Of a stretch of DNA of 64,000 nucleotides, positions 1,555-62,713 are shown piece after piece. The translations under genes and the position numbers were made by a program. How positions within the stretch are numbered: position 1 is the stretch's first letter; each line of letters starts with the position of its first letter. The notes under the pieces are model-generated. The model was not told the origin of the DNA, ran no database searches, and was given only the letters and a program-made list of their open reading frames with translations. The stretch comes from Acholoe squamosa (lineage: Eukaryota; Annelida; Polychaeta; Phyllodocida; Polynoidae). The DNA lies in the NCBI GenBank assembly GCA_949317995.1, contig OX439038.1, positions 36,213,113 through 36,277,112 on the forward strand, read 5' to 3'.

Positions 1555-1953
1555 GTCTGCTTGAGAGAAGCTAGTTCTTATAAATGACGAATGGTCTGCG
1601 TTAATCACAGAATGGTAACAACAAGATTCGTTTTACAAGCCTCACCCTGAACGTTGACTGAGCGTTATCACGTTTTTTTTATTTGAGTTAAGCTTTTTAC
1701 TTTTTTCCAAAACAACACTGTCTAAGTGTAAAACATACTATGAATGGAAAAGCACGGTTATCCACGACTCATGGACGTGGTTGTAGGTTATCTGAACGAC
1801 AAGGGAACATCCCAGCATCGTATCAGGATAGTTACTATAAAGAAGGCTTGAGCTGCTCGATCTTCATCAAACCTTTTCTGACGTTTGTCTGCTGTTCGCC
1901 GTCCTGCTCCTGCACCTTCCAGCCCTGCCACCCTTTCATCTTCAAGGAGAACA
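1555..1953. promoter_or_regulatory. Divergent promoter region between gene B and the SUMO-motif gene
   Basis: About 400 bp separate two genes that start back to back. A TATA box (TATAAAG, 1836-1842) lies about 115 bp before the rightward start at 1954 and is kept in the right copy (antisense, near 40885-40892). The block also has an imperfect palindromic AACGTTGACTGAGCGTTATCACG stretch, kept in the right copy. No coding sequence is evident. Confidence 0.45.
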
Positions 1954-3356: not shown

Positions 3357-3586
3357 GTGGTCAACTTTGTATAGTGTCTGGTCAACAGCTCCTTGTTTAG
3401 TGCTTTTACATTATCATGTATATCAGCTAATTTGTAGTTAGATTTAAATGTACTCCGTCTTTAGTCAACATAGCCCAGCGTAGGTTTAAGTTCTATATGT
3501 ACTCCATGTATACTTAGGTTAGGTTTTAGTTATAAGTTTGTATATTGAACATAAAGTGAAACAAGAAAAAGAAACCTTAAAAAAAA

Positions 3587-6500
3587 ATGCCGCCCAAAAA
3601 GGTAAAACAACTTTACACCGTCAACTGTCCAATGTGTAACACCCCTAGACCTCCACGTTTGGTCACTGTAGAAAACAGTGGAAAAACTCTATGTAACTCA
3701 GATTCTTGTAAAAGAGAAACTTTTTCCGACAGCTTAGAACTTCCAAAAGAAATAGAAAAAAATTCTTTGCATAAAAGCAGTTACCGTGACAACTTCAAGT
3801 CCATAGCTTCAGGTTTGGCTGTGCTTGGTAAGCTTCAGTCCATTTTCAACGTCAGAATGACAAGTTTTAACAAAGACTTGGTAGCCAAACAGGTAATAGA
3901 GGCGCTTTAGACCTCTATTCATAGAAATCAAGTTATGGCTTACAAAGTGGCTGTCTCTTTTGGAAGGTTGTTGTCTTCCTCTAAGGAGGAAGAAGAAGAA
4001 AAAGCCATGTACTTTCATGCTTCTGCCAACAACTCGTCTTTGTTCTATGACAGTGAAAGTCATAGAGACCCTTACATTTTTATAAGGGACGACAAAGACT
4101 TTGCAGAGTGTTTAGATTTAATAGAAAACAACATTAAAGAAGACACTCAAAGACCCTCTACTAAATGGAGTGTAATAGGCAACGTGAACGCCAACATCAC
4201 ACTCATAAGGGCTACGGGAGGAGAATATCTTTTAGGTAAAATGAAAACTGTTCCACCAGGTTTAAGACAAAGAGGAATGCAACACTTTCACAGAGACCCT
4301 AAAACCAAAAGGGCATACAAGGACAACTTGTGTTTCTTTAGATGTCTGTCTTTCTTCCTGTATGAATCTTTAGAAAAAACTCAAGAGCTTTTCCTTGAAG
4401 CCTATCCAGGGGTGAACAAGGAGACTTTTGAGGGTGTTGACATAAAAGATTTAGACAGGTTAGAAAAAATGTTTGAAGTTAACATAAGAATTTTTTACCT
4501 TCCCTCTTTTGGTAAAAGAAAGGGGCGACCTAAAATTATAAGGTCAAACATGTGTTCATCCAAAAAAATCATGAACTTGAACTTACACAGAAACCATGTA
4601 AGTTTAATAACTAACATGGGACTGTATGGTAAAATGTACCCCTGTGAAAAGTGTTATAAAGTTTTCACTCGTAGCTTCCTTTTGAAACAACACAATGGGG
4701 TGAAAAAAGATTGCACCAAAGTCAGCTTCAGGTACAAAGGTGGAGCTTACAATCCATCCAAAACAGTTTTTCAAGTTTTAGAGGAACTGGGAATAGTTTG
4801 TTCACCTGAGAAAAAAATATACCCCTATAAAATTGTTTTTGACTTTGAAAGCTATTTCGTCCAACCTGAAAATTCGTCCCCAGAAAATGCTAACACTGTG
4901 ATAGAAAAAACTCACATACCCCTTTCTGCCAGTGTAGCTTCTGATTTTCCTGGGCATACAGAACCAGTGTGTTTTGTCAGAAATTCCAACAGGGACGACG
5001 ATCCTTTGTTTAAAAATGTGTTGGAACACATAAACAACTTGGGGCAGTTGATAGGAGAACAGGTGAAAGAGAATTTTAGAGATGTTTTAGACGAACTAGA
5101 CTCTCTAGAAGAAAAACAAAAGGAACTAGAACATAAAGCTAGCAAAGTTTTTCCAGCAAAGAACAAAAAAAAATCCAAAAAAAAAACTCCCATGTTCTTG
5201 AAGTGAAGGAAAAACTTCTTACCTACATAGAAAGAGTCCCTGTTCTAGGTTTCAACTCTGGAAAGTATGACATTAATTTGATAAAAAAGGAATTTCATTC
5301 TTTTTTTATAGACACAGACAAGACAGAAATGAAAACCATAAAAAAATGCAACAAGTACATAGCAGTGTACACAGACCATCTTCTTTTCCTTGACATGTTC
5401 AACTATTTGGCACCAGGTTATTCCTATGCAAACTACCTGAAAGCCTTTCTGAAAGGGAAAGCTGAAAAAGGTTTTTTTCCCTACGAGTGGATGGACAACA
5501 TAAGAAAACTGAACAACAAAGCTCTTCCTCCACGCCACTGCTTCTACAGTTCTTTGTCGGGTGGTGGAATAAGCAAAGAAGATTATCTTGAATGTAAAAA
5601 GGTCTGGACAGAAAACAAAATGAAAACTATGAAGGACTACTTGATATATTACAACAACCTGGACTTTAAACCCTTTGTTTTAGCGATAAACGAGCACACA
5701 AAATTTTTTATAGACCGTGGGGTAGACATGTTCAAAGACGGTTTAACTTTGCCAGGTCTGACCTTGAAGTTTCTTTTCAACAACACTGCACCTAATGCCA
5801 CACCTTACATTCTTTTTGGTGAGAAAGAAAAGGATGTTCACTCCTTGCTCAGACGCAACTTAGTAGGGGGTCCCTCTATTATATTTCACAGACATCACAA
5901 AAGTGGAGAAACAAGAATAAGACAAAAAAAATACGGGCCACAAAGCAAAGTATGCAGACACATAGTAGGGGTAGATGCTAACAGCTTGTACCTCAAGTGC
6001 ATGGGTGAAGAACACTGCACAGGTTATTATGTGGTGCGCAGGAAAGAAAACGATTTTCAAGCTGTCTGCAGTCAACAGATTAGCTACTCAGCCACAGAAT
6101 GGTTGCGATACAAAACTGTGACAGACAAAGTGAAGATATTACACCAATACAACTACGGGGAAGTAGTATTGGGTTCAAGGAAAATAAAAGTGGACGGCTA
6201 TGATCCAGCTTCAAAAAAAGTATACCAGTTTCACGGGTGCTACTGGCATGGTCACATATGTCACCTCACTAAATCAGTTTTGAGAGACCCCAATGGAAAG
6301 GCATGGTTAGAAGAAAAAAACCAAAATACCATTTTGACTACCCTATATCTTCAGTCGTTAGGTTACCAAGTAGAGGAAAAGTATGAGTGTATGTGGCTGA
6401 AAGAAAAAACTGAAAACTCGTGCAGAAAAACAAAAAGTGAATGGGAAATTAAAAGACCTTTGTGCCAAGGCAGAAAAAGTCAGGATGAAATACTGAGAGG

Positions 6501-7728
6501 GGTTTCTAGAGGAACAACTTTTGGACTTATCCAGGTAGACATAGAAACACCTGAATCTTTGAAAGAAAAATTCAGTGAAATGACACCTATTTTCAAAAAC
6601 TGTTTAGTAGGAAAAAATGACGTAGGTGAACATATGAAACGTTACCTGGAAGCAGCAGGTAAGCTGAAACAACCGCAACGCCAACTTATAGGCAGCTACC
6701 ACGCAGAGGGAATTTTGTTGGGAACTCCTCTCTTGAAGTGGTACCTGGAGAAAGGTTTGGTAGTTACGACAGTACACCTTCTCATAGAATACACACCAGA
6801 ACAGACTTTTTTACCCTTCATGGACGAAGTGACCAAAGCTAGGAGGAAGGGAGATGAAAACATAGACTGTAAGATTCTGTCAGATCTGTACAAACTTTTG
6901 GGAAATGGTTCATACGGAAAAACCATATGCAACAAACAAAACTTTGTTCAAACAAAGTATCTTCACCCCTCTAAGGCAAGACGTTTGGCCATGCACTGGT
7001 CAGTGCAAGATGTGCAAGACATAAGTGACAACACGGTAGAACTGTCCTGTTTGCCCACCTCCATCACCTACGACCTCCCAGTTCAAATAGGGTTCATGGT
7101 ATACCAATATGCCAAACTTAAAATGTTGGCTTTCTATTACGACTTTCTCCTTGAATACATAGACGAGAAAGATTTTGAAATGTGTGAAATGGACACTGAC
7201 AGTTTTTACTTTGCTTTAAGTGCAGAGAACATAGAAGACGTAATTATTCCTGAAAAACGTGAAGCTTTCTTCAGAGAACGTCACAAATGGTTGCCCTCTG
7301 AATCATGTGACAACAGTCACCACAGAGAGACCTATGTTCAGACCAAAGTTTTGGGTGAGCTGTGGCTGCCTCAACCATGCTGTAAGAGCCGTCTGGCGTT
7401 TGACAAGAGAACCCCCGGGTTATTCAAAGTGGAGTGGGAAGGTGATGAAATGACTGCCTTGAACTCCAAATGTTACATAGGCACAGGAGTGAATGTGCCC
7501 GTTAAAATGAGTTGCAAAGGTGTAATTCAAAAACAAAACCCCCTGACCACTGACAAGTACAAAGAAGTACTGGACAGTGAAAATGTTGTCACGGTAGTCA
7601 ACAAAGGATTTAAAGTAGTTAACCACAGCGTTACGACTTACTCTCAAAGGAAACAAGGTCTAACCTATCAGTACATAAAGAGACAAGTATGTGAAGACGG
7701 TGTAAGCACCCTACCCCTTTCTATATAA
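3587..7728 (+). pseudogene. Protein-primed family B DNA polymerase, Polinton type (left copy)
   Basis: The N-terminal region has a CPMC...C zinc-finger-like pair, a DNLCFFRCLSFFL segment typical of Polinton polymerase N-termini, and a second finger starting YPCEKC. Then follow an exonuclease block (FDFES near 4838-4852, GFNSGKYD near 5248-5271), polymerase motif A (GVDANSLYL, near 5967-5993), the endonuclease-like insert with VDGYDP and FHGCYWHGH (6190-6255), motif B (LLGNGSYGKT, near 6900) and motif C (DTDS, 7192-7203). This order is that of the Polinton/adintovirus replicative polymerase, which copies a linear genome primed by a terminal protein. The copy is broken, with about two breaks, and is otherwise well preserved. 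Confidence 0.93.
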
Positions 7729-7794
7729 AAAAATGGTTTCTTTTTCTAGTTTCACTTCCAGTTGTACATTTCGTTGAAAGAAAAAATTTTAAAC

Positions 7795-8280
7795 AAATTG
7801 TTCAAATGAACATTTTTCTTCATAGAAAACAGTGTTAAAATGAAAAATGTTCATTTAAACAATTGTTCAAACGAACATTTGTTTAAATGAACATTTTTCC
7901 CCATAGAAAACAGTGTTAAAATGAAAAATGTTCATTTGAACAATTGTTCAAACGAACAATTGTTCAAATGAACATTTTTCCCCATAGAAAACAGTGTTAA
8001 ACTGAAAAATGTTCATTTGAACAATTTTTCAAACGAACATTTGTTCAAATGAACATTTTTCCCCATAGAAAACAGTGTTAAAATGGAAAATGTTCATTTG
8101 AACAATTGTTCAAACGAACATTTGTTCAAATGAACATTTTTTCCCATAGAAAACAGTGTTAAAATGGAAAATGTTCATTTGAACAATTGTTCAAACGAAC
8201 ATTTGTTCAAATGATTTTTTTTCCATAGAAAACAGTGTTAAACTGGAAAATATTTTTTGTTCAAATGAACATTTTTCAAT
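7795..8280. repeat. Six-unit, 81-bp tandem repeat made of inverted repeats
   Basis: The marker CATAGAAAACAGTGTTAAA recurs at about 7821, 7902, 7983, 8064, 8145 and 8224, a period of 81 bp. Each unit holds GTTCAAATGAACATTT-like palindromes and the reverse AAATGTTCATTTGAAC, so each unit can fold into a stem. The right copy keeps essentially one unit (about 34975-35060), so the array has changed length. It lies right behind the polymerase gene; an origin or transcription-end role is only a guess. Confidence 0.85.
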
Positions 8281-8541
8281 TAAAAAACAAAGGAAAAAAC
8301 TGTGTACTGTATCATGAAAAAAAAACTGACAAAAAAGTAAAAAAAGTGAACTGTATCACCCAAAAAATAAAAAAACTTTTCACAAAAGTGAATGCTGTAC
8401 ATGTTCACGACAAAAATAAAAAAATCCGGCGCTGAAGAAATTAAGTTGGAACAGAAAAAAAGTGGTACCAGATTTCTTGACTCATAGCGTCACGTTCACC
8501 AGATTATTAGTATCTGGTTAGATTTAAGCAACCATTTTAAC

Positions 8542-9414
8542 ATGGAAAGTTTAAAAGCTATGCTTGTGGAGCAAACCACAGAAACTCCACCTTATGACTA
8601 TTACATGCGTCCAGTTTTACAAAGTGTTGCTTCATATAATCAAGCTTCTTCTATAACACCTGACAATGATATAAGTTCTGTAGCATGTGGATGTTCAGAG
8701 AATTTCTTTTGGGAAATAATACCTGCAGAAAACATTGGTTATTTTAGAGGAGCTGAACCAGACACTGTTGACCACTGTATAACTAGTGTTAAAATGTACA
8801 AATATTTCTCTTCAGCTTTTTGGGACGCCTACAGAAACTGCATGTACTATTGTCGAGTGAAAAAAGTTAACTTGATAATGCATGATTGGTGTATAGGAGT
8901 ATATCAATTGCACACTGAACCTGGCTGCCCAAGACATTACACAAGGTACACTTTAGGAAGTGTAAGAAAGTTTGCTCTTACTCTCCAAGAGTTAGAATGT
9001 AATCCCATAGTAGGAGTGTTTTGTCAGTGTAATTGTAAACTGGAAGTATCTGCTATTGCTAAAACTATTTGTTTCACATGTCTGCAGGTCTCACTGGAAC
9101 TTCATGCCTTAAGTATACCTGGAGTGAAAAATCATTTCTCCTTCGAGGTAAACTTTAAGGATGGTTTTTTATCTGGTCTTTTACCTGGACCCAAAAACAG
9201 TCAAACTTACTTCCTGGCCCAGGCTTTGTTCGAGCATGCTATATCTAACATAGCCAAACTTAACAGTTATTGTTTCCACAACACATGGAAAACTAGTCTC
9301 ACTGGTCAAAGCTGGTATCAAGCAAGTAAATTCACACACAACAAATGTTTCTGTAGTATATGTGCACGCCCCGGAAATGGCAAATCTTTCTTCATCTGTA
9401 AATATTGTGTCTAA
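8542..9414 (+). CDS. Cys-rich Polinton gene X with C-terminal CxCxxC...CxxC (left copy)
   Basis: A 290-residue protein, open throughout, starting MESLKAMLVEQ. It has many cysteines (CGCSEN, CQCNCK, ICFTCL) and ends with CFCSIC followed after 13 residues by CKYC, a zinc-ribbon-like tail holding a CxCxxC core. No signal peptide or membrane helix. It lies between the repeat array and the terminus and reads toward the terminus. The stop codon overlaps the polyadenylation signal (TAATAAA at 9412-9418). The other copy at 33842-34714 is nearly identical, which argues for recent coding function. I do not recognise a named family; CxCxxC motifs occur in regulatory proteins of small DNA tumour viruses, so a host-interaction role is possible. 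Confidence 0.7.
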   Translation: MESLKAMLVEQTTETPPYDYYMRPVLQSVASYNQASSITPDNDISSVACGCSENFFWEIIPAENIGYFRGAEPDTVDHCITSVKMYKYFSSAFWDAYRNCMYYCRVKKVNLIMHDWCIGVYQLHTEPGCPRHYTRYTLGSVRKFALTLQELECNPIVGVFCQCNCKLEVSAIAKTICFTCLQVSLELHALSIPGVKNHFSFEVNFKDGFLSGLLPGPKNSQTYFLAQALFEHAISNIAKLNSYCFHNTWKTSLTGQSWYQASKFTHNKCFCSICARPGNGKSFFICKYCV

Positions 9415-9852
9415 TAAAAATATAATCTGTTATGTGAAATAAATGAGTTGTGTTTTATTTTAATGCATGAAATGAAGAGACATAACAAAATGAGTCATAA
9501 GTATTGCGTAAATCCATAAAAGTATTGCATCAGAACATTGTGTAAATTCTTACAAGCATTGCGCAATGCACCCTCATACGTAGGTCATACGTTTTTGCAA
9601 GTAGGTTAGTAGGTCACTTCCGGTTTGCAAGTAGGTCAGCTCTAGGTATTGCACAATTCTTTTAATTTATGCAACTAGGTCAGGTCACTAGGTCAAATGG
9701 AATCCAGCTCTCTGATTGGTCGAAAAAAACTAGGTCATGACCTTATGACGTCACTTCCTGTCAAATCCAGCCCTCTGATTGGCTGAAACTAGGTCACTTC
9801 CGGTCTACCAGTAGGTCATGACCTAGTTAGTAGCTGAAGCATTGCGCTCAGT
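9415..9852. promoter_or_regulatory. Polinton subterminal region packed with transcription-factor-like sites
   Basis: Between 9580 and 9830 the half-site AGGTCA occurs nine times and TGACCT twice. Two copies form the perfect palindrome AGGTCATGACCT (9732-9743 and 9813-9824), the classic nuclear-receptor inverted repeat without spacer. The block also has ATTGCGCAAT (9558-9567, C/EBP palindrome), CACTTCCGGT (ETS-like, twice), TGACGTCA (near 9746-9753, CRE) and two inverted CCAAT boxes (CTGATTGG). The same kinds of site occur inverted at 33400-33700. No coding sequence is seen. Confidence 0.55.
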
Positions 9853-9870
9853 TTGCATGTATATACTACT
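9853..9870. repeat. Polinton terminus
   Basis: Read inward, the tip is AGTAGTATATACATGC, starting AGT as Polinton termini usually do. The identical tip is at 33382-33399. Sequence on the far side differs completely between the two copies (gag of E1 here, integrase of B there), which fixes the boundary. The opposite end of neither copy is visible, so a target duplication cannot be tested. Confidence 0.75.
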
Positions 9871-33381: not shown

Positions 33382-33841
33382 AGTAGTATATACATGCAAA
33401 GTCAGCGCAATGCTTCAGCTACTAACTAGGTCATGACCTACTGGTAGACCGGAAGTGACCTAATTTCAACCAATCAGAGGGCTGGATTTGACAGGAAGTG
33501 ACATCATAAGGTCATGACCTAGTTTTTTCGACCAATCAGAGAGCTGGATTCCGTTTGACCTAGTGACCTGACCTAGTTGCATAAATTAAGAGAATTGCGC
33601 AATACCTAGGGTTGACCTACTTGCAAACCGGAAGTGACCTACTAACCTACTTGCAAAAACGTATGCCCTACGTATGAGGGTGTATTGCGCAATGCTTGAA
33701 AGAATTTACACAATACCCATGACTCATGTTCTGATGCAATATTTCTATGCATAGTTATGACTCATTTTTGTTATCTCTCTTCATTTCATACATTAAAATA
33801 AAACACAACTCATTCATTTCACATAACAGATTATATTTTTA
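33382..33841. promoter_or_regulatory. Subterminal site-rich region, right copy
   Basis: This is the inverted counterpart of 9415-9870. It keeps two perfect AGGTCATGACCT palindromes (33428-33439 and 33509-33520), further TGACCT half-sites, two ATTGCGCAAT palindromes (33594-33603 and 33684-33693), ETS-like ACCGGAAGTG and CCAAT boxes. Confidence 0.55.
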
Positions 33842-34714
33842 TTAGACACAATATTTACAGATGAAGACAGATTTTCCATTTCCGGGGCGTGCACATATAC
33901 AACAGAAACATTTGTTGTGTGTGAATTTACTTGCTTGATACCAGCTTTGACCAGTGAGACTAGTTTTCCATGTGTTGTGGAAACAATAACTGTTAAGTTT
34001 GGCTATGTTAGATATAGCATGCTCGAACAAAGCCTGGGCCAGGAAGTAAGTTTGACTGTTTTTGGGTCCAGGTAAAAGACCAGATAAAAAGCCATCCTTA
34101 AAGTTTACCTCGAAAGAGAAATGATTTCTCACTCCAGGTATACTTAAGGCGTGAAGTTCCAGTGAGACCTGCAGACATGTGAAACAAATAGTTTTAGCAA
34201 TAGCAGATACTTCCAGTTTACAGTTACACTGACAAAACACTCCTACTATGGGATTACATTCTAACTCTTGGAGAGTAACAGCAAACTTTCTTACACTTCC
34301 TAAAGTGTACCTTGTGTAGTGTCTTGGGCAGCCAGGTTCAGTGTGCAATTGATATACTCCTATACACCAATCATGCGATATCAAGTTAACTTTTTTCACT
34401 CGACAATAGTACATGCAGTTTCTGTAGGCGTCCCAAAAAGCTGAAGAGAAATATTTGTACATTTTAACACTAGTTATACAGTGGTCAACAGTGTCTGGTT
34501 CAGCTCCTCTAAAATAACCAATGTTTTCTGCAGGTATTATTTCCCAAAACAAATTCTCTGAACATCCACATGCTACAGAACTTATATCATTGTCAGGTGT
34601 TATAGAAGAAGCTTGATTATATGAAGCAACACTTTGTAAAACTGGACGCATGTAATAGTCATAAGGTGGAGTTTCTGTGGTTTGCTCCACAAGCATAGCT
34701 TCTAAACTTTCCAT
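33842..34714 (-). CDS. Cys-rich Polinton gene X, right copy
   Basis: A whole copy of the 290-residue protein at 8542-9414, starting MESLEAMLVEQ. I chose the ATG at 34714 because it matches the left copy; upstream in-frame sequence is the non-coding leader. The CxCxxC tail reads CFCCIC here, followed by CKYC. Only a handful of residues differ between copies, which suggests coding constraint or recent origin. The stop codon again overlaps AATAAA. Confidence 0.7.
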   Translation of the reverse strand: MESLEAMLVEQTTETPPYDYYMRPVLQSVASYNQASSITPDNDISSVACGCSENLFWEIIPAENIGYFRGAEPDTVDHCITSVKMYKYFSSAFWDAYRNCMYYCRVKKVNLISHDWCIGVYQLHTEPGCPRHYTRYTLGSVRKFAVTLQELECNPIVGVFCQCNCKLEVSAIAKTICFTCLQVSLELHALSIPGVRNHFSFEVNFKDGFLSGLLPGPKNSQTYFLAQALFEHAISNIAKLNSYCFHNTWKTSLTGQSWYQASKFTHNKCFCCICARPGNGKSVFICKYCV

Positions 34715-35124
34715 GTTAAATGGTCGCTTAAATCTAACCAGATACTGATAATCTGGTGAACGTGACGCTATGAGAAAAGAAATCTGGTACCACTTTTTTC
34801 TGTTCCAAGTTAATTTCTTTAGCGCCGGATTTTTATTTTTTGTGGTGAACATGTACAGCGTTCACTTTTGTGAAAATTTTTTTTGGATTTTTTTGGGTGA
34901 TACAGTTCACTTTTTTTTACTTTTGTCAGTTTTTTTTCATGATACAGTACACATTTTTTTACCTTTGTTGTTTATTTGAAAAAATGTTCATTTGAACAAA
35001 AAACATTTTCCAGTTTAACACTGTTTTCTATGGGGAAAAATGTTCATTTGAACAATTTGTTTAAATTTGTTTCTTTCAACAAAATGTACAACTGGAAGTG
35101 AAACTAGAAAAAGAAACCATTTTT
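34715..35124. repeat. Spacer with one palindromic repeat unit
   Basis: An A/T-rich, T-run-rich spacer with essentially one of the 81-bp units (about 34975-35060: GTTCATTTGAAC and GTTTTCTATGGGG). It corresponds to the six-unit array at 7795-8280. Confidence 0.7.
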
Positions 35125-38100
35125 TTATATAGAAAGGGGTAGGGTGCTTACACCGTCTTCACATACTTGTCTCTTTATGTACTGATAGGTTAGACCTTGT
35201 TTCCTTTGAGAGTAAGTGGTAATGCTGTGGTTAACTACTCTAAATCCTTTGTTGACTACCGTGACAACATTTTCACTGTCCAGTACTTCTTTGTACTTGT
35301 CAGTGGTTAGGGGGTTTTGTTTTTGAATTACACCTTTGCAACTCATTTTAACGGGCACATTCACTCCTGTGCCTATGTAACATTTGGAGTTCAAGGCAGT
35401 CATTTCATCACCTTCCCACTCCACTTTGAACAACCCGGGGGTTCTCTTGTCAAACGCCAGACGGCTCTTACAGCATGGTTGAGGCAGCCACAGCACACCC
35501 AACACTTTGGTCTGAACATAGGTCTCTCTGTGGTGACTGTTGTCACATGATTCAGAGGGCAACCATTTGTGACGTTCTCTGAAGAAAGCTTCACGTTTCT
35601 CAGGAATAATGACGTCTTCTATGTTCTCTGCACTTAAAGCAAAGTAAAAACTGTCAGTGTCCATTTCACACATTTCAAAATCTTTCTCATCTATGTATTC
35701 AAGGAGAAAGTCGTAATAGAAGGCCAACATTTTAAGTTTGGCGTATTGGTATACCATGAAACCTATTTGAACTGGGAGGTCGTAGGTGATGGAGGTGGGG
35801 AAACAGGACAGTTCTACCGTGTTGTCGCTTATGTCTTGCACATCTTGCACTGACCAGTGCATGGCCAAACGTCTTGCCTTAGAGGGGTGAAGATACTTTG
35901 TTTGAACAAAGTTTTGTTTGTTGCATATGGTTTTCCCGTATGAACCATTTCCCAAAAGTTTGTACAGATCTGACAGAATCTTACAGTCTATGTTTTCGTC
36001 ACCCTTCCTCCTAGCTTTGGTGACTTCGTCCATGAAGGGTAAAAAAGTCTGTTCTGGTGTGTATTCTATCAGAAGGTGTACTGTCGTAACTACCAAACCT
36101 TTTTCCAGGTACCACTTCAAGAGAGGAGTTCCCAACAAAATTCCCTCTGCGTGGTAGCTGCCTATAAGTTGGCGTTGTGGTTGCTTCAGCTTACCTGCTG
36201 CTTCCAAGTAACGTTTCATATGTTCACCTACGTCATTTTTTCCTACTAAACAGTTTTTGAATATAGGTGTCATTTCGCTGAATTTTTCTTTCAAAGATTC
36301 AGGTGTTTCTATGTCTACCTGGATAAGTCCAAAAGTTGTTCCTCTTGAAACCCCTCTCAGTATTTCATCCTGACTTTTTCTGCATTGGCACGATGGCCTT
36401 TTAATTTCCCATTCACTTTTTGTTTTTCTACACGAGCTTTCAGTTTTTTCTTTCATCCACATACACTCATACTTTTCCTCTACTTGGTAACCCAACGACT
36501 GAAGATATAGGGTAGTCAAAATCGTATTTTGGTTTTTTTTCTTCTAACCATGCCTTTCCATTGGGTTCTTTCAAAACTGATTTAGTGAGGTGACATATGT
36601 GACCATGCCAGTAGCACCCGTGAAACTGGTATACTTTTTTTGAAGCTGGATCATAGCCGTCCACTTTTATTTTCCTTGAACCTAATACAACTTCCCCGTA
36701 GTTGTATTGGTGTAATATTTTCACTTTGTCTGTCACAGTTTTGTAGCGCAACCATTCTGTGGCTGAGTAGCTTATCTGTTGACTGCAGACAGCTTGAAAA
36801 TCGTTTTCTTTCCTGCGCACCACATAATAACCTGTGCAGTGTTCTTCACCCATGCACTTGAGGTACAAGCTGTTAGCATCTACCCCTACTATGTGTCTGC
36901 ATACTTTGCTTTGTGGCCCGTATTTTTTTTTGTCTTATTCTTGTTTCTCCACTTTTGTGATGTCTGTGAAATATAATAGAGGGACCCCCTACTAAGTTGC
37001 GTCTGAGCAAGGAGTGAACATCCTTTTCTTTCTCACCAAAAAGAATGTAAGGTGTGGCATTAGGTGCAGTGTTGTTGAAAAGAAACTTCAAGGTTAGACC
37101 GTCTTTGAACATGTCTACCCCACGGTCTATAAAAAATTTTGTGTGCTAAAACAAAGGGTTTATGGCTAAAACAAAGGGTTTAACGTCCAGGTTGTTGTAA
37201 TATATCAAGTAGTCTTTCATAGTTTTCATTTTGTTTTCTGCCCAGACCTTTTTACATTCAAGATAATCTTTGCTTATTCCACCACCTGACAAAGAACTGT
37301 AGAAGCAGTGGCGTGGAGGAAGAGCTTTGTTGTTCAGTTTTCTTATGTTGTCCATCCACTCGTAGGGAAAAAACCCTTTTTCAGCTTTCCCTTTAAGAAA
37401 GGCTTTCAGGTAGTTTGCGTAGGAATAACCTGGTGCCAAATAGTTGAACATGTCAAGGAAAAGAAGATGGTCTGTGTACACTGCTATGTACTTGTTGCAT
37501 TTTTTTATGGTTTTCATTTCTGTCTTGTCTGTGTCTATAAAAAAAGAATGAAATTCCTTTTTTATCAAATTAATGTCATACTTTCCAGAGTTGAAACCTA
37601 GGACAGGGACTCTTTCTATGTAGGTAAGAAGTTTTTCCTTCACTTCAAGAACATGGGAGATTTTTTTTGGATTTTTTTTGTTCTTCGCTGGAAAAACTTT
37701 GCTAGCTTTATGTTCTAATTCCTTTTGTTTTTCTTCTAAAGAGTCTAGTTCGTCTAAAACATCTCTAAAATTCTCTTTCACCTGTTATCCTATCAGCTGC
37801 CCCAAGTTGTTTATGTTTTCCAACACATTTTTTACCAAAGGATCGTCGTCCCTGTTGGAATTTCTGACAAAACACACTGGTTCTGTATGCCCAGGAAAAT
37901 TAGAAGCTACACTGGCAGAAAGGGGTATGTGAGTTTTTTCTATCACAGTGTTAGCATTTTCTGGGGATGGATTTTCAGGTTGGACGAAGTAGCTTTCAAA
38001 GTCAAATACAATTTTATAGGGATATATTTTTTTCTCAGGTGGACACACTATTCCCAATTCCTCTAAAACTTGAAAAACTATTTTGGATGGATTGTAAGCT

Positions 38101-39235
38101 CCACCTTTGTACCTGAAGCTGACTTTGGTGCAATCTTTTTTCACCCCATTGTGTTGTTTTAAAAGGAAACTACGAGTGAAAACTTTATGACACTTTTCAC
38201 AGGGGTACATTTTACCATACAGTCCCATGTTAGTTATTAAACTTACATGGTTCCTGTGTAAGTTCAAGTTCATGATTTTTTTGGATGAACACATATTTGA
38301 CCTTATAATTTTAGGTCGCCCCTTTTTTTTACCAAAAGAGGGAAGGTAAAAAATTCTTATGTTAACTTCAAACACCTTTTCTAACCTGTCTAAATCTTTT
38401 ATGTCAATGCCCTCAAAAGTCTCCTTGTTCACCCCTGGATAGGCTTCAAGGAAAAGAGTTTTTTCTAAAGATCCATACAGGAAGAAAGACAGACATCTAA
38501 AGAAACACAAGTTGTCCTTGTATCCCCTTTTGGTTTTAGGGTCTCTGTGAAAGTGCTGCATTCCTCTTTGCCTTAAACCTGGTGGAACAGTGTTCATTTT
38601 ACCTAAGAGATATTCTCCTCCCGTAGCCCTTATGAGGGTAATGTTGGCGTTCACGTTGCCTATTACACTCCATTTAGTAGAGGGTCTTTGAGTGTCTTCT
38701 TTTATGTTGTTTTCAATTAAATCTAAACAATCTGCAAAGTCTTTGTCGTCCCTTATGAAAATGTAAGGGTCTCTATGACTTTCACTGTCATAGAACAAAG
38801 ACGAATTGTTGGCAGAAGCATGGAAGTACATAACTTTCTCTTCTTCTTCCTCCTTAGAGGAAGACAACAACCTTCCAAAAGAGACAGCCACTTTGTAAGC
38901 CATAACTTGATTTCTATGAATAGAGGTAAGAGCTTCTATTACCTGTTTGGCTCCCAAGTCTTTGTTAAAACTTGTCATTCTGACGTTGAAAATGGACTAA
39001 AGCTTACCAAGCACAGCCAAACCTGAAGCTATGGACTTGAAGTTGTCACGGTAACTGCTTTTATGCAAATAATTTATTTCTATTTCTTTTGGAATTTCTA
39101 AGCTGTCGGAAAAAGTTTCTCTCTTACAAGAAACTGAGTTACATAGAGTTTTACCACTGTTTTCTACAGTAACCAAACGTGGAGGTCTAGGGGTGTTACA
39201 CATTGGACAGTTGACGGTGTAAAGTTGTTTTACCT
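35125..39235 (-). pseudogene. Protein-primed family B DNA polymerase, Polinton type (right copy)
   Basis: It has the same domain order as the left copy: N-terminal fingers, CFFRCLSFFL segment, FDFES exonuclease block, motif A, the FHGCYWHGH endonuclease-like insert, motif B and the DTDS motif C (near 35650-35662). Most stretches differ from the left copy at only a few residues. Broken, with about five or six breaks, so more decayed than the left copy. Confidence 0.92.
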
Positions 39236-39397
39236 TTTTTTACATTTAGGTTTGACTTAAGAACTTAAACCTATGCTGGGCTATGTCGACTGAACATGGA
39301 GTACATTTAAATCTAACTATGAATCAGCTAATATACATGATTATGTGAAAGCACTGAATAAGGAGCTCTTGACCAGACACTATACAAAGTTGACCAC

Positions 39398-40773
39398 TTA
39401 CCCAGAGTAGAAATCGGTCGTCTCGTCTAGGAACGGACCAACACATGATTTAATGTCCTCCAGAATGAAGGGGGACACAGTGTGTCCACAGTGTGTGGCT
39501 GAGGGGGGCATCCTGTAGCTGGAAGACACCGAGGCGTTCATCTCCTCGACATAGCTGGTTGTTCCTTTATGAACTTTAGGAGTTCCCTTGTACAAGTTCA
39601 CCAAAATCATAGCCCGTCCACCACGGGGGTCGGTGCAGTCTTGTTTCAAGGACAACAAAAGATTGTCTACCTTCCTCTCTCCAAGGGCAGCTCGGCGGTG
39701 TAGCTCCTTGTACTTTCCAAGGATGCACTCTGTCTGGTCCACTAAGTTCCTGAACTCACGCGCCTCTAGGTTTAAGCACCGCTCGTAAGGTTTGTCCAGG
39801 TACGTCCTCAAGCATACTCCCCTAATACTAGGTTCCCTGTATATTTCTATGCAGGCGTTTTTATCCCCTTCCGGATAAAAAACTTGGTCGGGGGCAGGTG
39901 ACTTCTCTTGAAAACCATGTCTTTGCCACCAAAGGCACTGACCTGAAGCCCACAAGCTTGCTGGAAGTACTGGGGGCAGTGCCCTCCCCAAACTTTTGCC
40001 TGTGTGACTTGTCTTTAGAAGAAGGAATACCTGGGGCAGAACCAATTGGCTCGGCGCCATAGGAAGAAGTTGCTGAGGAAACTGAAGCAGGGGCAGAGAC
40101 AGGGGTTTTCTTGTTGTAGGCGCGTTTCTGTCTTTTCTTCTTAGGCTCCCCTTCACTCTCACCGGGACAGGTTCTTTTCTCCGGCGGGGTTTTAAGCAGC
40201 TCCTCTACCGGAACCGGGAGAGAGTATTGGGGAGAAGGGCCAGTCAGATCTATGACCTCTACCTGTGAATACCCCCCTCGGTGAGCAGGTAAAGGTGTCC
40301 CTTGTGTTAAATCCACCACTTCTATGGGGTTGACTGCTGGTGATGACGATGTGAGGTCTATGACCTCTATTGGACTGACCTGGGGAGAAGGTTCCTCCGG
40401 AGTTACTGGCGAGTAAGTGGCGGACGTAGGTGCTTCAGTGGGGGGCTGGTGCCGGGGGATTGATGAATTCCCTGATGTCAAAATCGCCGTCGCCATCTTC
40501 CTGAGGAGTGCGATCCCGGACGCGATCCAGGAAATCAGTGATTTCGCCATGAAGAGCTGCAAGAGCGGCTTCTTGTTCTCCTGCATCAGGCACTTCAGTT
40601 GGAAGCCGAGCAGGAGTTGCAGGTGGTTTATCAGCTGAGGCTGGAGAGGTGGGAGGAGGGGCGACGCCCGACGTCTTTTCCACTGTCTGTTTAGGTGTGG
40701 GAACAGTCAGTGGAGCCAGTTTTTTAGCTGCTACTCTCCTGACACTAAGTCCCATCTTCATGCGACCAGGCAT
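39398..40773 (-). pseudogene. SUMO-motif/PC4-like Polinton protein (right copy)
   Basis: This is the counterpart of 1954-3356, starting MPGRMKMGLSVRR at 40773. Its three motifs read VIDLT, VVDLT and VIDLT (near 40375-40349, 40332-40303 and 40265-40235), cleaner than in the left copy, where one is VIELT. The basic PKKKRQKR and the C-terminal CIEIYREPS...CLNLEAREFRNLVDQ domain are kept. Broken, about two breaks. Confidence 0.6.
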
Positions 40774-41171
40774 TGTTCTCCTTCAAGATGAAAGGGTGGC
40801 AGGGCTGGAAGGTGCAGGAGCAGGACGGCGAACAGCAGACAAACGTCAGAAAAGGTTTGATGAAGATCGAGCAGCTCAAGCCTTCTTTATAGTAACTATC
40901 CTGATACGATCCTGGGACGTTCCCTTGTCGTTCAGATAACATACAACCATGTCCATGAGTCGTAGATAACCGTGCTTTTCCATTCATAGTATGATTTACG
41001 CTCAGACAACGTTGTTTTGGAAAAAAGTAAAAAGCTTAACTCAAATAAAAAACCGTGATAACGCTCAGTCAACGTTCAGGGTTAGGCGTGTAAGACGAAT
41101 CTCGTTGTAACCGTTTTGTGATTAACGCAGACCATTCGTCATTTTTCAAAACGAGCTTCTCTCAAGCAGAC
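40774..41171. promoter_or_regulatory. Divergent promoter region, right copy
   Basis: Inverted counterpart of 1555-1953, with the TATA-like CTTTATAG near 40884-40892 for the leftward gene. Nothing coding is supported. Confidence 0.4.
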
Positions 41172-41804
41172 ATGGCTAACTTTTGTCCTTTGCCTTTGTC
41201 TTTGATCATAGGTCACAAAAGGCGTCAGGAGGTGTTTATTTCAGACATCAGGAGGGGCGTAGAAGAAGGTAAGGTGTGGGCTGTGTGGAAATTCTGTCCT
41301 GAAAATTTCAACAGGGATCTTTACATCCCTCCTAACTGTAACTTCAAACAATGCTTCTTGCACAACCAAACCACTGCATTGGTTCCTAGTGGACCCTCTG
41401 TGAAAAAACTTATCTCAGAAAATGGGGAAAGTTTTTTTTCAGGTGTTCTTTTGGGACATGGTGCCATGGTACACTTGATGTCGAGGCATTCCATTTCCTC
41501 TGGAAGTTCAAAAAAATTTTTTCTCAGGGATCAACCTTTGGGGGGAGGACCTGGTAATTCAGTTTTCATCGATTCTACTATGGTGAAGGCTTTAATTAAA
41601 GCCACTTTACTTCACCCAGACAAAATTACACACTCTCTAGGTTCAAAAATTTTCTATGAAAGAGGATTCAGGACAGAGATTGGACACAATTACCGTGGGT
41701 GCTGTCATGTTGTGAGAGTTATAACTGAAATAACTGCCTCCCATGAAAAAGGTCAGCTCAAGGTCGTAACAGCCTACCCCGTATCTCATTTTTGGTCCTC
41801 CTAA
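41172..41804 (+). CDS. Unrecognised Polinton gene B, right copy
   Basis: A 210-residue protein starting MANFCPLPLSLIIGHKRRQ and ending in KVVTAYPVSHFWSS. It is close to gene B at 898-1554 apart from a short length difference in the Ser-rich middle. The stop codon is again part of TAATAAA. The frame is open throughout. Function unknown. Confidence 0.62.
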   Translation: MANFCPLPLSLIIGHKRRQEVFISDIRRGVEEGKVWAVWKFCPENFNRDLYIPPNCNFKQCFLHNQTTALVPSGPSVKKLISENGESFFSGVLLGHGAMVHLMSRHSISSGSSKKFFLRDQPLGGGPGNSVFIDSTMVKALIKATLLHPDKITHSLGSKIFYERGFRTEIGHNYRGCCHVVRVITEITASHEKGQLKVVTAYPVSHFWSS

Positions 41805-41978
41805 TAAAACTGAAAAGAAATAAACGATGATCCTCCGGGTAAGGCCCCTGGGCTAAACCCACCCTTCCACATGTTTTCCCCTCTTTTCAACATGCTCAGG
41901 CACTGACCCTGACGTTTGTTTCGTCCTTGAGCAATAAATCATTTCAGAAAAGTGCAATAAGGAAAGACTGACAGGTTT

Positions 41979-41988
41979 CCTATAAAGG
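41979..41988 (+). promoter_or_regulatory. TATA box of gene A, right copy
   Basis: CCTATAAAGG lies about 50 bp before the gene A start at 42037, as in the left copy. Confidence 0.5.
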
Positions 41989-42036
41989 GTAAACGGGGAC
42001 TAAACCATCATTTGACACAACAACCTTCGCCCTACC

Positions 42037-42659
42037 ATGTCGGGTTACTCCCTGCAGCGTGTACTAGAACAACGTCACCCCGACGACACTCAAGTTCTGA
42101 CGTACGTTAGGGAAAGAAAGGAAATTATATGTTGCTCTTCAAGCTGTTTCAGTTATGTGTGCAATACTTGAAAGAAACTGTTCTTCACCGGAAAAAATTA
42201 AACTTAGTTTTTTCTTCAGTTGAATCAAGTTTTACATCCAAAGACAGAAAAACCTTGAGGAAAATGGTTTTGAGACATAACTTGTCAAAATTTTCAGCGG
42301 TGGAAACCTTGGGTTATGCCCTGAAACATGGAGGAAAGGGAAAGGGCCCACTGAAAAACCCCTTCCATTTGGAAGCATTGAAAGCGGCAGAAGAGCATCA
42401 CGCCAAAGAAAATACCCGCCAACTTAACCAGCGTCTTGATTTCTTCATGTCTATTTTGGACCTTCTAGCTCAGTGCTTAGAAACCAAAACTTTGTTTTCC
42501 TCCTGCCCCATATTTCACATCCCATCATCGTCCCTGGATCGTTTCAGTGTGGAGGAGAAAAAAAAAGTGTGGTTTTATCTGGCTATGTGGTGCACCCAGC
42601 TTATCTCCCTTACTCACTGTTTTCACCACAATCAGCTCGCTTTACACTCAATATCATAA
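42037..42659 (+). pseudogene. Unrecognised Polinton gene A, right copy
   Basis: Counterpart of 9-662. The start MSGYSLQRVLEQRHPD is kept, as is the long middle ending in HFHHNQLALHS-like sequence. Broken, about one or two breaks. Confidence 0.55.
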
Positions 42660-42714
42660 CAAATTTAAACGAATGAAGAACGATGTTACAGGCTGACCTA
42701 AAGAGGGGGAACGT

Positions 42715-43051: not shown

Positions 43052-43681
43052 ATGGAGTTTCACCTTTCGGACGAGTTGTTATTCAAGATCAGTGAAAAAA
43101 TATCAAAAAAAGACTACCCTCGATTAGGGGTTTATCTAGGACTCAGACTAAGTTTGATGGATTACATGGAAAAAACACCATCTCTTCGTTCTATGGGGAG
43201 AGAAATGCTTATATCATGGAACAGAAAGAATGTGCGTTGCAAGTGGATGGTATTAAGACATGCGTTAAGTGACATAGGTCGTTACGATCTCTCTGAATAT
43301 TGCAGATGGTACATGCAGTATTACGACGTAGTGGACCATTGTGAAATACCTCCAGAAGAGTGGAAAGTTGATACTTTGTTCGTGAACCTGGCAGACAAGT
43401 TAAAGATGCTTGACTGGAGAAAACTGGGAAGACAACTGGGGTTAACCGAGCATGAACTTGATGTGATTACCTCCCCTGTTCCAGGGAGAAAAGGTGTCAC
43501 AAATCCTGTTTTCGAAGTCCTGATGGTGTGGAAGCATAGAGAAATATCTCATCCAAGTTGTCTTATAGCAAGTTTGAACAACATGGGGCTTTTTGACGTA
43601 GCTCTTAACGTGGAAGGATTACGAGAGGGCTCTTCTCACTTAAAAGAGGCTGAGGTGGATCCTTTGGTCACTTTGGTTTAA
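43052..43681 (+). CDS. Tandem death-domain protein of the Polinton
   Basis: A protein of about 209 residues with two successive death-domain-like six-helix repeats. Repeat one (about residues 5-85) shows DELLFKISEKI, DYPRLGVYLGL, LRSMGREMLISW and LRHALSDIGRYDLSEYC. Repeat two (about 110-190) shows LFVNLADKL, DWRKLGRQLGLTEHELD, VFEVLMVWKH and LIASLNNMGLFDVA. There is no kinase, caspase or membrane part, so it could act as an adaptor or decoy in host death or innate-immune signalling. I chose the ATG at 43052; an upstream TTG is unlikely. It sits 13 bp before the ATPase gene, in the same direction. A host-captured gene is the simplest origin. The frame is open. Confidence 0.7.
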   Translation: MEFHLSDELLFKISEKISKKDYPRLGVYLGLRLSLMDYMEKTPSLRSMGREMLISWNRKNVRCKWMVLRHALSDIGRYDLSEYCRWYMQYYDVVDHCEIPPEEWKVDTLFVNLADKLKMLDWRKLGRQLGLTEHELDVITSPVPGRKGVTNPVFEVLMVWKHREISHPSCLIASLNNMGLFDVALNVEGLREGSSHLKEAEVDPLVTLV

Positions 43682-43694
43682 GATTTCATCCAAC

Positions 43695-44384
43695 ATGGAT
43701 CACAAGGAAAAGGAGATCATTTTTGACCCACGTCTACAAAGCCCCTTCACTATGATCATAGCTGGACCTACTTCTTGTGGAAAAAGTCAACTTGTTTTCA
43801 AGTTGATTAAAGGTGTAGACGAGCTTGTAACTCCAAAAATACACGACATATACTACTGCTACAGTAAATGGCAAGATGGATTCGATGAAATGGTAAAGTT
43901 GGGGGTTAAGTTTAACAAAGGTCTTCTTTCAGAAGACTTTTTGTTTGAGGATAAAAGAGACGTGACTAAACATGGACTGGTCATAATAGACGACCTTATG
44001 GATCCCGAGTACGTTCCCACCATAATGAAGCTTTTCACTGTGGGCTCTCACCATCGCAGTTTAAGTGTAATTTTTATTACACAAAACCTGTTTTTTAACA
44101 ATCCTGCCTTCAGAATGTTGAGCTTAAATGCACACTACCTAGTTGTTTTTAAAAACCCTAGAGACATGAGTCAAATAGGACACATCAGCAAACAGGCCTT
44201 TCCTGGACAGAAATCCTTTTTGACGGAGGTATATAACTCAGAAACCAAAGAGAAGCATTCATACATCCTATTGGACTTTAAGCAGAGCACACCTAACGAG
44301 CTCAGGGTAAGGAACAGTATAACAACTCCTTGGAATACCTTGGTTTTCATTCCTCAAGCTTCAGCTTCGAAAAGAAAAAGATAG
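43695..44384 (+). CDS. Polinton genome-packaging ATPase (FtsK/HerA-type, A32-like)
   Basis: A 229-residue protein with Walker A AGPTSCGKS (about residues 18-26), Walker B LVIIDDLMD (about 94-102) and the sensor-like segment SLSVIFITQN (about 121-130). This is the pattern of Polinton/adintovirus/A32-like ATPases that pump DNA into capsids. The length is normal for the family and the frame looks whole. It stops one base before the next gene. Confidence 0.9.
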   Translation: MDHKEKEIIFDPRLQSPFTMIIAGPTSCGKSQLVFKLIKGVDELVTPKIHDIYYCYSKWQDGFDEMVKLGVKFNKGLLSEDFLFEDKRDVTKHGLVIIDDLMDPEYVPTIMKLFTVGSHHRSLSVIFITQNLFFNNPAFRMLSLNAHYLVVFKNPRDMSQIGHISKQAFPGQKSFLTEVYNSETKEKHSYILLDFKQSTPNELRVRNSITTPWNTLVFIPQASASKRKR

Positions 44385-59870: not shown

Positions 59871-60146
59871 AAAACTGAAGAGGGGTCTCCTGAAGGGCAA
59901 ACAAGGGGATCCCTGTGACATTATTTGCCATATCACCAGCCGTAATACAGATTTGCATGTAGTAACAGATTCGCCGGTGAGGATTGTAAAATCCGGAAGG
60001 TTAGGGAGCCCGATATATCAAGTGCCCAGGGTGCACAGGGGAAACCCAATATCTGTGAAGAGGTAGGCAGCTATGAGATAGCCAGGGTTGGTAGTACCCA
60101 CCTACCCCCGGGTCATCCTTGTCTGGAATTCCTAAAAGGATGTGGA

Positions 60147-61421
60147 TTGACTCCTGGTGTGAACAATGAAATTCCTGTTGTTACGGATACGCCTTCCCTA
60201 TTAAATGGAAGGCGGTGGTATGTATGTCTTACTGTTAACGGAAGGTCTGCTGAGTTTCTGGTTGATATGGGTGCTAGCCACTCCTGTATTTCCAGGAAAT
60301 TCTACGACCTTATCCCGGATGTGCATGATACTCTCCTATCGGGAGGTAGTGCTCAGACGGCCGATGGCAGTAAAATGCAAATGTATGGTAGAACCTGTGT
60401 GAAGTTGCAAATGGATAGTATACATGACTTTGTCATGAGTGCAGCCATTGTGGATATATCAGATGAAGGGATACTCGGGTTAGATTTCGCATCATTATAT
60501 GGAGTGATGTTGGAACCACAGTCTTGGGTGCTGAGTGCGAAATACCCGTATCCTGTGAAAGTAAGGTGTGTATTAATACAAGAGAGCAGTATGGCCTCAG
60601 TGGCTCATACTGTAAGGATTCCTGCAGGAGTAGCCTGTGATGTACTTCTAAGAAGTGATCCGGCTATTAGGAATGAGACAGCCGTGATAGAACCAGATGT
60701 AGTTGCCCTGTCTAGTATCTGATTGACTTCCGTAGACACAATGGTAGCTAATGCATCTTGGACAGTAGTATCAGTTTCAAACCTGAGTACTAGACCCATC
60801 TATTTGAAGAAGGGACATGTTTTTGGAAGCATAACTCTTTCAGAAACGGTTACGGACAGCAACTTTAAGTTGCCGGAAGTAACTGATCCGGGGGATATGT
60901 CAGATGACTTGAGAAAGTTATATGAGGAAACACCGTTAGAAGATCCTGATCATAAAAAGGAACTGTTTGAATTGCTGGAGCAATACAAGAATGCATTTGC
61001 TAAGGTATTAAAGCTGATCCAGATAAAATCGAATCAGTTAAGAAATAAGGTCCTTCTTAGGATTCTGTTCCTATTACCGGGATTTCATTCCAAATTACTC
61101 TAGAGTCAGTTATCCTTTACAAATTTTGGTTAATTGGACTCCAGGAAGTGCCAAGGAAAAATTTCCTTGGGGAAACGAATAAGATTGAGCTTTTCAGAAG
61201 CTAAAGGATCTGTTCACGAGTACTCCAGTATTACAATATCCGAATGAAACGGATCATTTCATACTGGATACGAATGCTAGCAATGATAGCATTGGTGCTG
61301 CTCTATCACAGGTCCAAAATGGAGTAGAAGTACCAATAGCATTTGCTAGTAACACTTTGAGTCGAACTCAACGTAACTATTGCACAACTAAACGAGAGTT
61401 GTTAGCAGTAATAGTGTATAC
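60147..61421 (+). pseudogene. E3 protease and RNase H remnants
   Basis: The protease shows FLVDMGASHSCISRKFYDLIP, where E1 and E2 have DTG, and GILGLDFASLYG. After the protease-RT connection little RT is seen. RNase H sequence runs from about 61180 (CTAAAGGATCTGTTCACGAG) to the point where element D begins. Fossil. Confidence 0.78.
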
Positions 61422-61590
61422 TGTAGGGGCACGGTTTTAGGATGGTTTCGGTACGAGTTGGTCAGTTCCTGAGCGGGGTGGACACTCAGGTCTAAGGTCG
61501 GCTACGCCGGGCGAGTGGTGGCAGCACTGCTCCCCGGACTTCTTGGCCTGGACTCGAGAGGTCGCCATCCAACCCCTGTGACCTTGTATA

Positions 61591-61840
61591 TGTAGGGGTT
61601 CGTTCCCCCGTCGGGTGCGCAGAGCCTTCAGAGGGACTGTTCACTTGGTTGTGTCACTCCCCCTATGTATACCATACCGATTCAGGGTAGTTGGAAGGTG
61701 GAAATGTCAGTGGGGCCGTGTTGGTGACAGGGTATGTCAGGCCAGGGGATGTAGCTCAGCGGTAGAGCACTCGACTTGCAAGCGAGAGACCCGGGTTCGA
61801 ATCCCGGTGTCTCCAAAAGACGTTTTCACTGACCACTACA
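61591..61840 (+). repeat. TRIM 5' LTR (250 bp)
   Basis: Runs TGTAGGGG...CCACTACA with a tRNA-Ala gene at positions 155-225 of the LTR, followed by a T4 run. The tips match those of the element B LTR (TGTAGGGGT and ACCACTACA). Confidence 0.88.
61745..61815 (+). tRNA. tRNA-Ala (anticodon TGC), in TRIM 5' LTR
   Basis: A 71-nt tRNA folds completely: acceptor GGGGATG with TGTCTCC, D arm GCTC/GAGC, an anticodon stem with one A-G mismatch next to the loop, loop CTTGCAA with anticodon TGC at 61777-61779, and T arm CCGGG/CCCGG with loop TTCGAAT and discriminator A. The internal pol III promoter is intact: box A TAGCTCAGCGG (61752-61762) and a perfect box B GGTTCGAATCC (61794-61804). A TTTT terminator follows at 61823-61826. 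No CCA is encoded, as in eukaryotic nuclear genes. Confidence 0.93.
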
Positions 61841-61841
61841 G

Positions 61842-61855
61842 TGGTGGAGACACCG
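61842..61855 (+). other. TRIM primer-binding site, complementary to tRNA-Ala
   Basis: TGGTGGAGACACCG begins one base after the 5' LTR. It is the exact reverse complement of the last 11 bases of the tRNA-Ala in the LTR (CGGTGTCTCCA) plus the added CCA, 14 of 14 positions. Confidence 0.9.
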
Positions 61856-62041
61856 AGTGGTCCTGCCTCGCATGGGGGACCTTTAGAGAGCTCGGTACCT
61901 GGGCCGGTATGGTATAGACAACCGCTTCAACTTGCTAGTGCTCAGGGACTTGGAAACAGATGGGCTGTGTGTGACTCAGTACTGGTACCGTTCAGACTGG
62001 ACTGGAGGACCGGTTCTGGCGGGATACGGTTGAAGCTGGTT

Positions 62042-62049
62042 GGGAGGAG
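62042..62049 (+). other. TRIM polypurine tract
   Basis: GGGAGGAG directly precedes the 3' LTR, where plus-strand priming is expected. Confidence 0.75.
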
Positions 62050-62299
62050 TGTAGGGGTTCGTTCCCCCGTCGGGTGCGCAGAGCCTTCAGAGGGACTGTT
62101 CACTTGGTTGTGTCACTCCCCCTATGTATACCATACCGATTCAGGGTAGTTTGAAGGTGGAAATGTCAGTGGGGCCGTGTTGGTGACAGGGTATGTCAGG
62201 CCAGGGGATGTAGCTCAGCGGTAGAGCACTCGACTTGCAAGCGAGAGACCCGGGTTCGAATCCCGGTGTCTCCAGAAGACGTTTTCACTGACCACTACA
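62050..62299 (+). repeat. TRIM 3' LTR (250 bp)
   Basis: Same length as the 5' LTR, with two base differences seen. It carries the second tRNA-Ala gene. Confidence 0.88.
62204..62274 (+). tRNA. tRNA-Ala (anticodon TGC), in TRIM 3' LTR
   Basis: Identical over 71 nt to the copy at 61745-61815, with anticodon at 62236-62238 and a TTTT terminator at 62282-62285. Both copies being identical and fully paired, apart from the shared mismatch, fits either recent insertion or selection on the tRNA shape. Confidence 0.93.
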
Positions 62300-62302
62300 T
62301 AT

Positions 62303-62709
62303 TGTAATAAACATTGGCTGGCGGCTCGGCGGCGGCCACCGAGGCTCGGTGGCCGGTTCCCGCGGTGACTGCTAGGTGGCGCGTCGGCGGTGACGTCACA
62401 GCCTTGTGATGTCACCGTCGGCGGCCGGGGGCTATAAAACGCGGTGTCCGGTGGTTTTATGGCAGACGCGATCAGACACTCAGGTGGCCTATGTGTAAGC
62501 TATCTTAAGGGAGTTCGGTGGCTAGTCCTAGTTCACGAACAGAGTGGCGTCTCTAAGCAAAGAATCAGTATAAGTACAAGTATCAGTATAAGCAAGTAAC
62601 TGATGACCAGTGACTGTTAGTCCTTAAGGCTCCTAAGAAATAAAACAACAACAACGGCTGTAACTTTATATTCCATTCTTTATACACGGTGTCGACTCTG
62701 GTTATTACA
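62303..62709 (+). repeat. Solo LTR of another family (407 bp)
   Basis: Ends are inverted (TGTAATAA ... TTATTACA). It contains TATAAAA at 62433-62439, GC-rich sequence upstream of it, and an AATAAAA signal near 62639. ATAT flanks it on both sides (62299-62302 and 62710-62713), fitting a 4-bp target duplication. No internal sequence or second LTR of this family is present, so it looks like a solo LTR left by recombination. Confidence 0.82.
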
Positions 62710-62713
62710 ATAT

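Follow-up and report, generated by a model that had tools for sequence, protein, structure and literature searches.

A TRIM family of Acholoe squamosa carries in its LTRs a tRNA-Ala gene that matches its own primer-binding site

Introduction

To begin reverse transcription, LTR retroelements and retroviruses generally rely on a tRNA taken from the host. A short element in the genome of the polychaete Acholoe squamosa raises the question of whether such an element could encode that primer itself. The element lies near the end of a 64,000-nucleotide stretch of contig OX439038.1, which we analysed as a whole and hereafter call the window. It has a tRNA-Ala gene in each long terminal repeat (LTR) and a primer-binding site (PBS) that pairs with the 3' end of the same tRNA.

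TRIMs with tRNA-like LTRs have been described under the name Helenus (TRIMp3) by Kojima in 2024 (PMC10886601). According to section 3.6 of that paper, no complementarity was found between LTR tRNA and PBS, and the LTR tRNA is given no part in initiation; in many Helenus families the isotypes disagree (PMC10886601). Here we ask which tRNA the PBS of the A. squamosa element fits best, and which explanations of that fit survive.

Results

Architecture of the element

The element is a TRIM of 709 bp (window 61591–62299), short and non-coding, with two LTRs, a PBS and a polypurine tract. Its features and those of its flanks are:

61587–61590, no strand: 5' target-site duplication (TSD), TATA; the 3' copy is 62300–62302 plus 62714, split by a nested solo LTR
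61591–61840, + strand: 5' LTR, TGTAG...CTACA, 250 bp
61745–61815, + strand: tRNA-Ala(UGC) in the 5' LTR (ARAGORN, Rfam)
61752–61762, + strand: box A, TAGCTCAGCGG, fits the consensus
61794–61804, + strand: box B, GGTTCGAATCC, fits the consensus
61823–61826, + strand: TTTT, Pol III terminator-like, 5' LTR
61842–61855, + strand: PBS, TGGTGGAGACACCG, complementary at 14 of 14 positions to the 3' end of the LTR tRNA plus CCA
61898–61916, + strand: internal stretch complementary to U3 (partner in the 3' LTR, 62127–62145; 12 nt exact)
62042–62049, + strand: polypurine tract, GGGAGGAG, adjoining the 3' LTR
62050–62299, + strand: 3' LTR, 250 bp
62204–62274, + strand: tRNA-Ala(UGC) in the 3' LTR, identical in sequence to the 5' LTR copy (ARAGORN, Rfam)
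62282–62285, + strand: TTTT, second copy, 3' LTR
62299–62302 and 62710–62713: ATAT, TSD of the solo LTR
62303–62709, no strand: later solo LTR, 407 bp, TGTAATAA...TTATTACA, outside the TRIM, with its own TSD ATAT

The original prediction of 250-bp LTRs with a polypurine tract holds: the two repeats differ at 2 positions (99.2% identity) and the tract abuts the second. The PBS begins 1 nt past the 5' LTR, and recomputing its complementarity to the CCA end of tRNA-Ala(UGC) returned the 14 of 14 that had been claimed. No second copy of the exact PBS was found in the window, where the best prefix of the tRNA-end complement on either strand, beyond the PBS itself, is its first 7 nt. No open reading frame of 200 or more amino acids overlaps 61591–62299. 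We sought relatives in viral contig and genome contig collections and found none there; in a phage search, tRNA genes were the sole matches, and a search with one open reading frame gave no match.

Each LTR does carry the predicted tRNA-Ala gene, including its box A, box B and T4 stop, on the evidence of ARAGORN, Rfam (score 67.2 bits, cut-off 29), the box consensus matches and one TTTT per LTR. The predicted tRNA keeps the alanine anticodon. Its base pairs, judged by eye, include the retained G3:U70 and, at 6:67 and 7:66, G.U pairs, with a mismatch at A31.G39; it folds no better than shuffled sequences (z −0.97). The CCA that the PBS letters TGG pair with is not encoded in the LTR. The TTTT sits 8 to 11 nt past each tRNA and is absent from the rest of the element, a scarcity that is unremarkable because a random model expects only about 1.2 in the tRNA-to-tRNA stretch.

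The internal stretch and U3 could possibly pair as a 5'–3' RNA contact: an exact match of at least 12 nt arose in 7 of 2,000 shuffles, and the duplex energy is ordinary (653 of 1,000 shuffles were equally low or lower).

The direct flanks of the TRIM, TATA and TATT, form an imperfect TSD. The solo LTR begins 3 bp 3' of the TRIM and splits off its 3' TSD, so that the flanks become TATA and TATA once this later insertion is accounted for. The nested solo LTR thereby rules out an absent TSD as an argument against transposition of this copy.

Left of the TRIM lies a Gypsy-like fragment with an aspartyl protease (59946–60722), which resembles another copy in the window, the similarity reaching 61421; to the right is a sequence with a CCHC-like motif (translation read by eye). 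The closest long Gypsy integrase matches are P0001–P0007 (63–74%), and the best organism-named match is from Pinctada imbricata (40%); a LINE endonuclease has organism-named matches from Callosobruchus, Trichonephila and Plakobranchus. A long inverted repeat (21–9870 and 33382–42681, mostly 92–99% alike) contains reading frames that, judged by eye, resemble Polinton/adintovirus genes, among them a DNA polymerase B-like one at 5143–7728 with a mirror copy; an ATPase-like reading frame (43644–44384) lies outside the repeat. Three of the inverted-repeat reading frames gave no Pfam match above the cut-off. A tandem repeat of 81-bp units occupies 7717–8305.

A dispersed family

We searched the source genome (1.48 Gb, 63 contigs). 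At least 42 matches at 97–100% identity (L001–L042) were returned and all were inspected; the number is a lower bound because 40 of 3,327 first-look candidates were scored. L022/L029 and L027/L042 are overlapping views of two tandem LTR-internal-LTR-internal-LTR arrays, each seen twice, so the 42 rows represent 40 separate sites. The TRIM is thus confirmed as a dispersed family with many copies on many contigs. Exact 4-bp TSDs flank 33 of the 42 rows, and the window copy falls among the nine misses because of the nested solo LTR. At five sites (L011, L015, L016, L031 and L032) the flanks agree in three bases, the fourth being G on the 5' side only.

With the arrays counted twice, the 42 rows contain the LTR tRNA 3' end CGGTGTCTCCA in 83 of 87 cases and an undamaged 14-nt PBS at 43 of 45 LTR/internal junctions. 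ARAGORN reports 63 tRNAs in L001–L030 (61 Ala-UGC, 1 Ala-CGC and 1 Cys), and two tRNA positions have common variants among the 42 rows. Across 30 aligned copies all 420 cells at the 14 PBS positions are unchanged, whereas elsewhere 7 to 23 per 1,000 vary, a conservation flattered by the fact that these are the best-scoring copies. The tRNA part varies at 14–16 per 1,000 and is no more conserved than its surroundings. The copies anticipated in the original prediction, with 4-bp duplications and retained tRNAs, are therefore present; moreover, every full insertion carries two LTR tRNA genes, as expected if insertions add tRNA genes to the genome.

The PBS sides with the LTR tRNA

Which tRNA-Ala does the PBS match? 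A pattern for ordinary tRNA-Ala genes (GTAGAGCGCTCGCTTNGCATG) matched 166 genome places, with none for the reversed-pattern control; it takes one anticodon-arm type, and other isodecoders could exist. We inspected 29 of the 166, comprising 7 UGC and 22 AGC genes. All 7 UGC genes end in CCCCGGCATCTCCA and 21 of the 22 AGC genes in ACCCGGGTTCTCCA, the remaining one being altered; the LTR-type end occurs in none of the 29. Many of the pattern matches listed fall on contig C12, where at about 51.451–51.479 Mb we observed a dense tRNA-Ala(AGC) array with common spacings of about 290, 390 and 515 bp.

A first comparison used the mammalian tRNA-Ala ends given in two papers (PMC12025293, PMC7330628) and was repeated with the host's own. 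The PBS pairs with the LTR tRNA at −27.5 kcal/mol, against 12 of 14 in register for ordinary UGC (−19.4 kcal/mol) and for ordinary AGC (−20.5 kcal/mol), and it agrees with the LTR tRNA at both of the differing positions. The comparison with ordinary genes that the original prediction had proposed thus favours the LTR tRNA, and by sequence the PBS fits the element's tRNA better than it fits the ordinary tRNA-Ala genes inspected (29 of 166).

An ordinary Helenus element could nevertheless show this arrangement if the LTR tRNA were a Pol III promoter only, the host tRNA-Ala pool did the priming and the isotype match were coincidental. The promoter role is the view published for Helenus (PMC10886601), ordinary tRNA-Ala genes are plentiful, as the 166 pattern matches show, and pairing at 12 of 14 is perhaps enough for some priming. 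Against it stand the two positions above, four of 18 in the copy described below, and the absence of the LTR-type end from the ordinary genes inspected. We consider this explanation unlikely, although it is the strongest of the alternatives; it predicts primer–cDNA junctions with CATCTCCA or GTTCTCCA ends.

A copy with an 18-nucleotide match

One copy, L026, has a PBS (TGGTGGAGACACCGGGAT) that pairs with the LTR tRNA at 18 of 18 positions and is followed by normal internal sequence. The same PBS pairs at 14 of 18 with ordinary UGC and 14 of 18 with ordinary AGC tRNA, and it agrees with the LTR tRNA at each of the four positions that distinguish this tRNA from ordinary Ala-UGC. The two LTRs of L026 show no differences. 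Its nearest relative among the other 29 aligned copies, L013, differs from it at 4 positions, 2 of which are the PBS changes; the other copies among the 30 retain AG-T at PBS positions 15–17.

HIV-1 plus-strand synthesis is described as copying 18 nt of the primer tRNA and halting before m1A58 (PMC13191261). We read the 18-nt PBS of L026 in the same way, as a probable trace of primer copying. A clean copy of this kind is rare, since the 16-mer ATCCCGGTGTCTCCAC occurs at only five places among the pattern matches listed (L026, L073, L075, L084 and L082). At three of these, the TRIM-derived loci L073, L075 and L084, the LTR tRNA runs through CCA into antisense PBS/LTR sequence; such fusions may have arisen by over-extended copying of the primer or by recombination between the 11-bp inverted repeats.

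That second origin leads to another explanation of the whole pattern, in which the complementarity serves RNA structure or is maintained by recombination, with L026 and the longer fusions having arisen through recombination. An 11-bp inverted repeat does link the acceptor strand of the tRNA to the PBS, its hairpin alone reaching −18.7 kcal/mol, and the three fusions join the LTR tRNA to antisense PBS/LTR sequence. However, the PBS extends to TGG, the complement of a CCA that the DNA does not encode, and it lies 1 nt after the LTR, the normal place of a PBS; and in L026 the match stops at exactly 18 nt. Recombination keeps a small residual chance as the origin of the L026 PBS, and as an account of the family we regard it as improbable, more so than priming by the host pool.

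LTR-type tRNA ends elsewhere in the genome

A primer with the same end might also come from a gene outside the LTRs. We searched the genome with ATCCCGGTGTCTCCAN{0,3}Y, which requires a pyrimidine within +1 to +4 of the 15-mer ATCCCGGTGTCTCCA and skips intact LTRs. In all, 24 places matched, 16 of them forward and 8 reverse; for the reversed-pattern control the corresponding figures were 8 and 0. TRIM sequence aligns with 23 of the 24 loci, several at only 71–91%, which are therefore probably older. At the other, L082, neither a TRIM match nor tRNA context was seen in the stretch inspected. L085 and L086 are one site, which L084 adjoins, and L081 is L026 again.

Seven of the loci (L072, L074, L083, L088, L089, L091 and L092) are diverged TRIM relatives, 71–91% alike and some of them partial. 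All seven retain tRNA-like sequence with the 15-mer end, and L072 (83% over its length) has TGGTGGAGACAC 3' of its LTR tRNA.

No ordinary source of the 18-nt PBS match was found genome-wide with the 15-nt end pattern, through which alone non-Ala isotypes were covered. Unread sequence could still contain a tRNA gene that lies outside the LTRs, shares the LTR-type 3' end, supplies the primer and is ancestral to the LTR gene, because the pattern misses genes that share only the last 11 nt or have only purines at +1 to +4. This is offset by the TRIM-related context of nearly all matches, by the lack of tRNA context at the remaining one, and by the pyrimidine rule itself, which 27 of the 28 normally ending ordinary Ala genes would pass when their trailers are judged by eye. 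We judge such a gene a slightly poorer prospect still than recombination. The idea that a tRNA locus was tandemly duplicated by chance, with no mobile element involved, has nothing in its favour that we found and is ruled out for practical purposes by dispersed copies with TSDs and a PBS.

Discussion

The best reading of this locus, and in our judgement a likely one, is a Helenus-type TRIM that encodes its own primer tRNA. With rather less assurance we favour a fuller version, in which the family encodes a dedicated primer tRNA unlike the host's ordinary isodecoders and one and the same LTR provides both primer and template, the two being kept matched because the primer is copied into the PBS.

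On this self-priming reading, Pol III would start at the LTR tRNA and mostly end at TTTT, giving a pre-tRNA-Ala that would be trimmed and receive its CCA. The template RNA, from 5' LTR to 3' LTR, would come from read-through of the TTTT in the 5' LTR or from a Pol II transcript. The element's tRNA isodecoder would then anneal to the PBS, which starts 27 nt 3' of its own coding sequence, and prime; we infer this use from the specificity of the PBS and from L026. The enzymes of reverse transcription would come from another element, for which the 4-bp TSDs make Ty3/Gypsy the probable candidate. Each full insertion, as seen in the copies, brings in the primer gene twice.

Two features complicate this scheme. 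Because the TTTT separates the tRNA from the PBS, a template RNA made by Pol III would need read-through; and efficient maturation of the LTR tRNA would mean that RNase P and Z cut the template too. With its A31.G39 mismatch and additional G.U pairs, the tRNA might be processed less efficiently.

How does the family compare with known systems? As in Helenus, each LTR holds tRNA-derived sequence with box A and box B, and PBS and polypurine tract are present; its 709 bp fall within the reported 311–1263 bp, and its 4-bp TSDs are those of animal members (PMC10886601). The differences from the Helenus report (PMC10886601) lie in the PBS, which matches the LTR tRNA here at 14 of 14 positions and in L026 at 18 of 18, and in the predicted tRNA, which retains its Ala anticodon and G3:U70. 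Cassandra of plants and Ajax of nemerteans are likewise TRIMs with LTR sequence derived from a Pol III gene, but that sequence is derived from 5S rRNA and is therefore unable to supply a tRNA primer (PMC10886601). Like the Tf1-type self-priming LTR retrotransposons, the family would not depend on an ordinary host tRNA as primer; those elements are described as having no conventional tRNA PBS (PMC6934838), whereas here there is one and a distinct tRNA encoded by the element would serve as primer. The biv-TRIM of bivalves is also an animal TRIM with terminal direct repeats, but its canonical PBS is reported as not found and its description in that account mentions no LTR tRNA (PMC6934838).

The self-priming design first proposed for this locus therefore stands in part. 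The LTR tRNA does fit its own PBS; TRIMs with tRNA-like LTRs, however, already bear the name Helenus, so the novelty lies in the primer match. Among the titles and abstracts listed for openly licensed PMC papers, none describes an LTR tRNA that matches the PBS of its own element.

The TRIM spreads tRNA-like genes throughout the genome, which bears on tRNA gene counts. If the self-priming reading is correct, it would give the intact tRNA genes in the LTRs of these TRIMs a function, and a primer of its own would uncouple the provision of primer from the translation pool and hold primer and template together.
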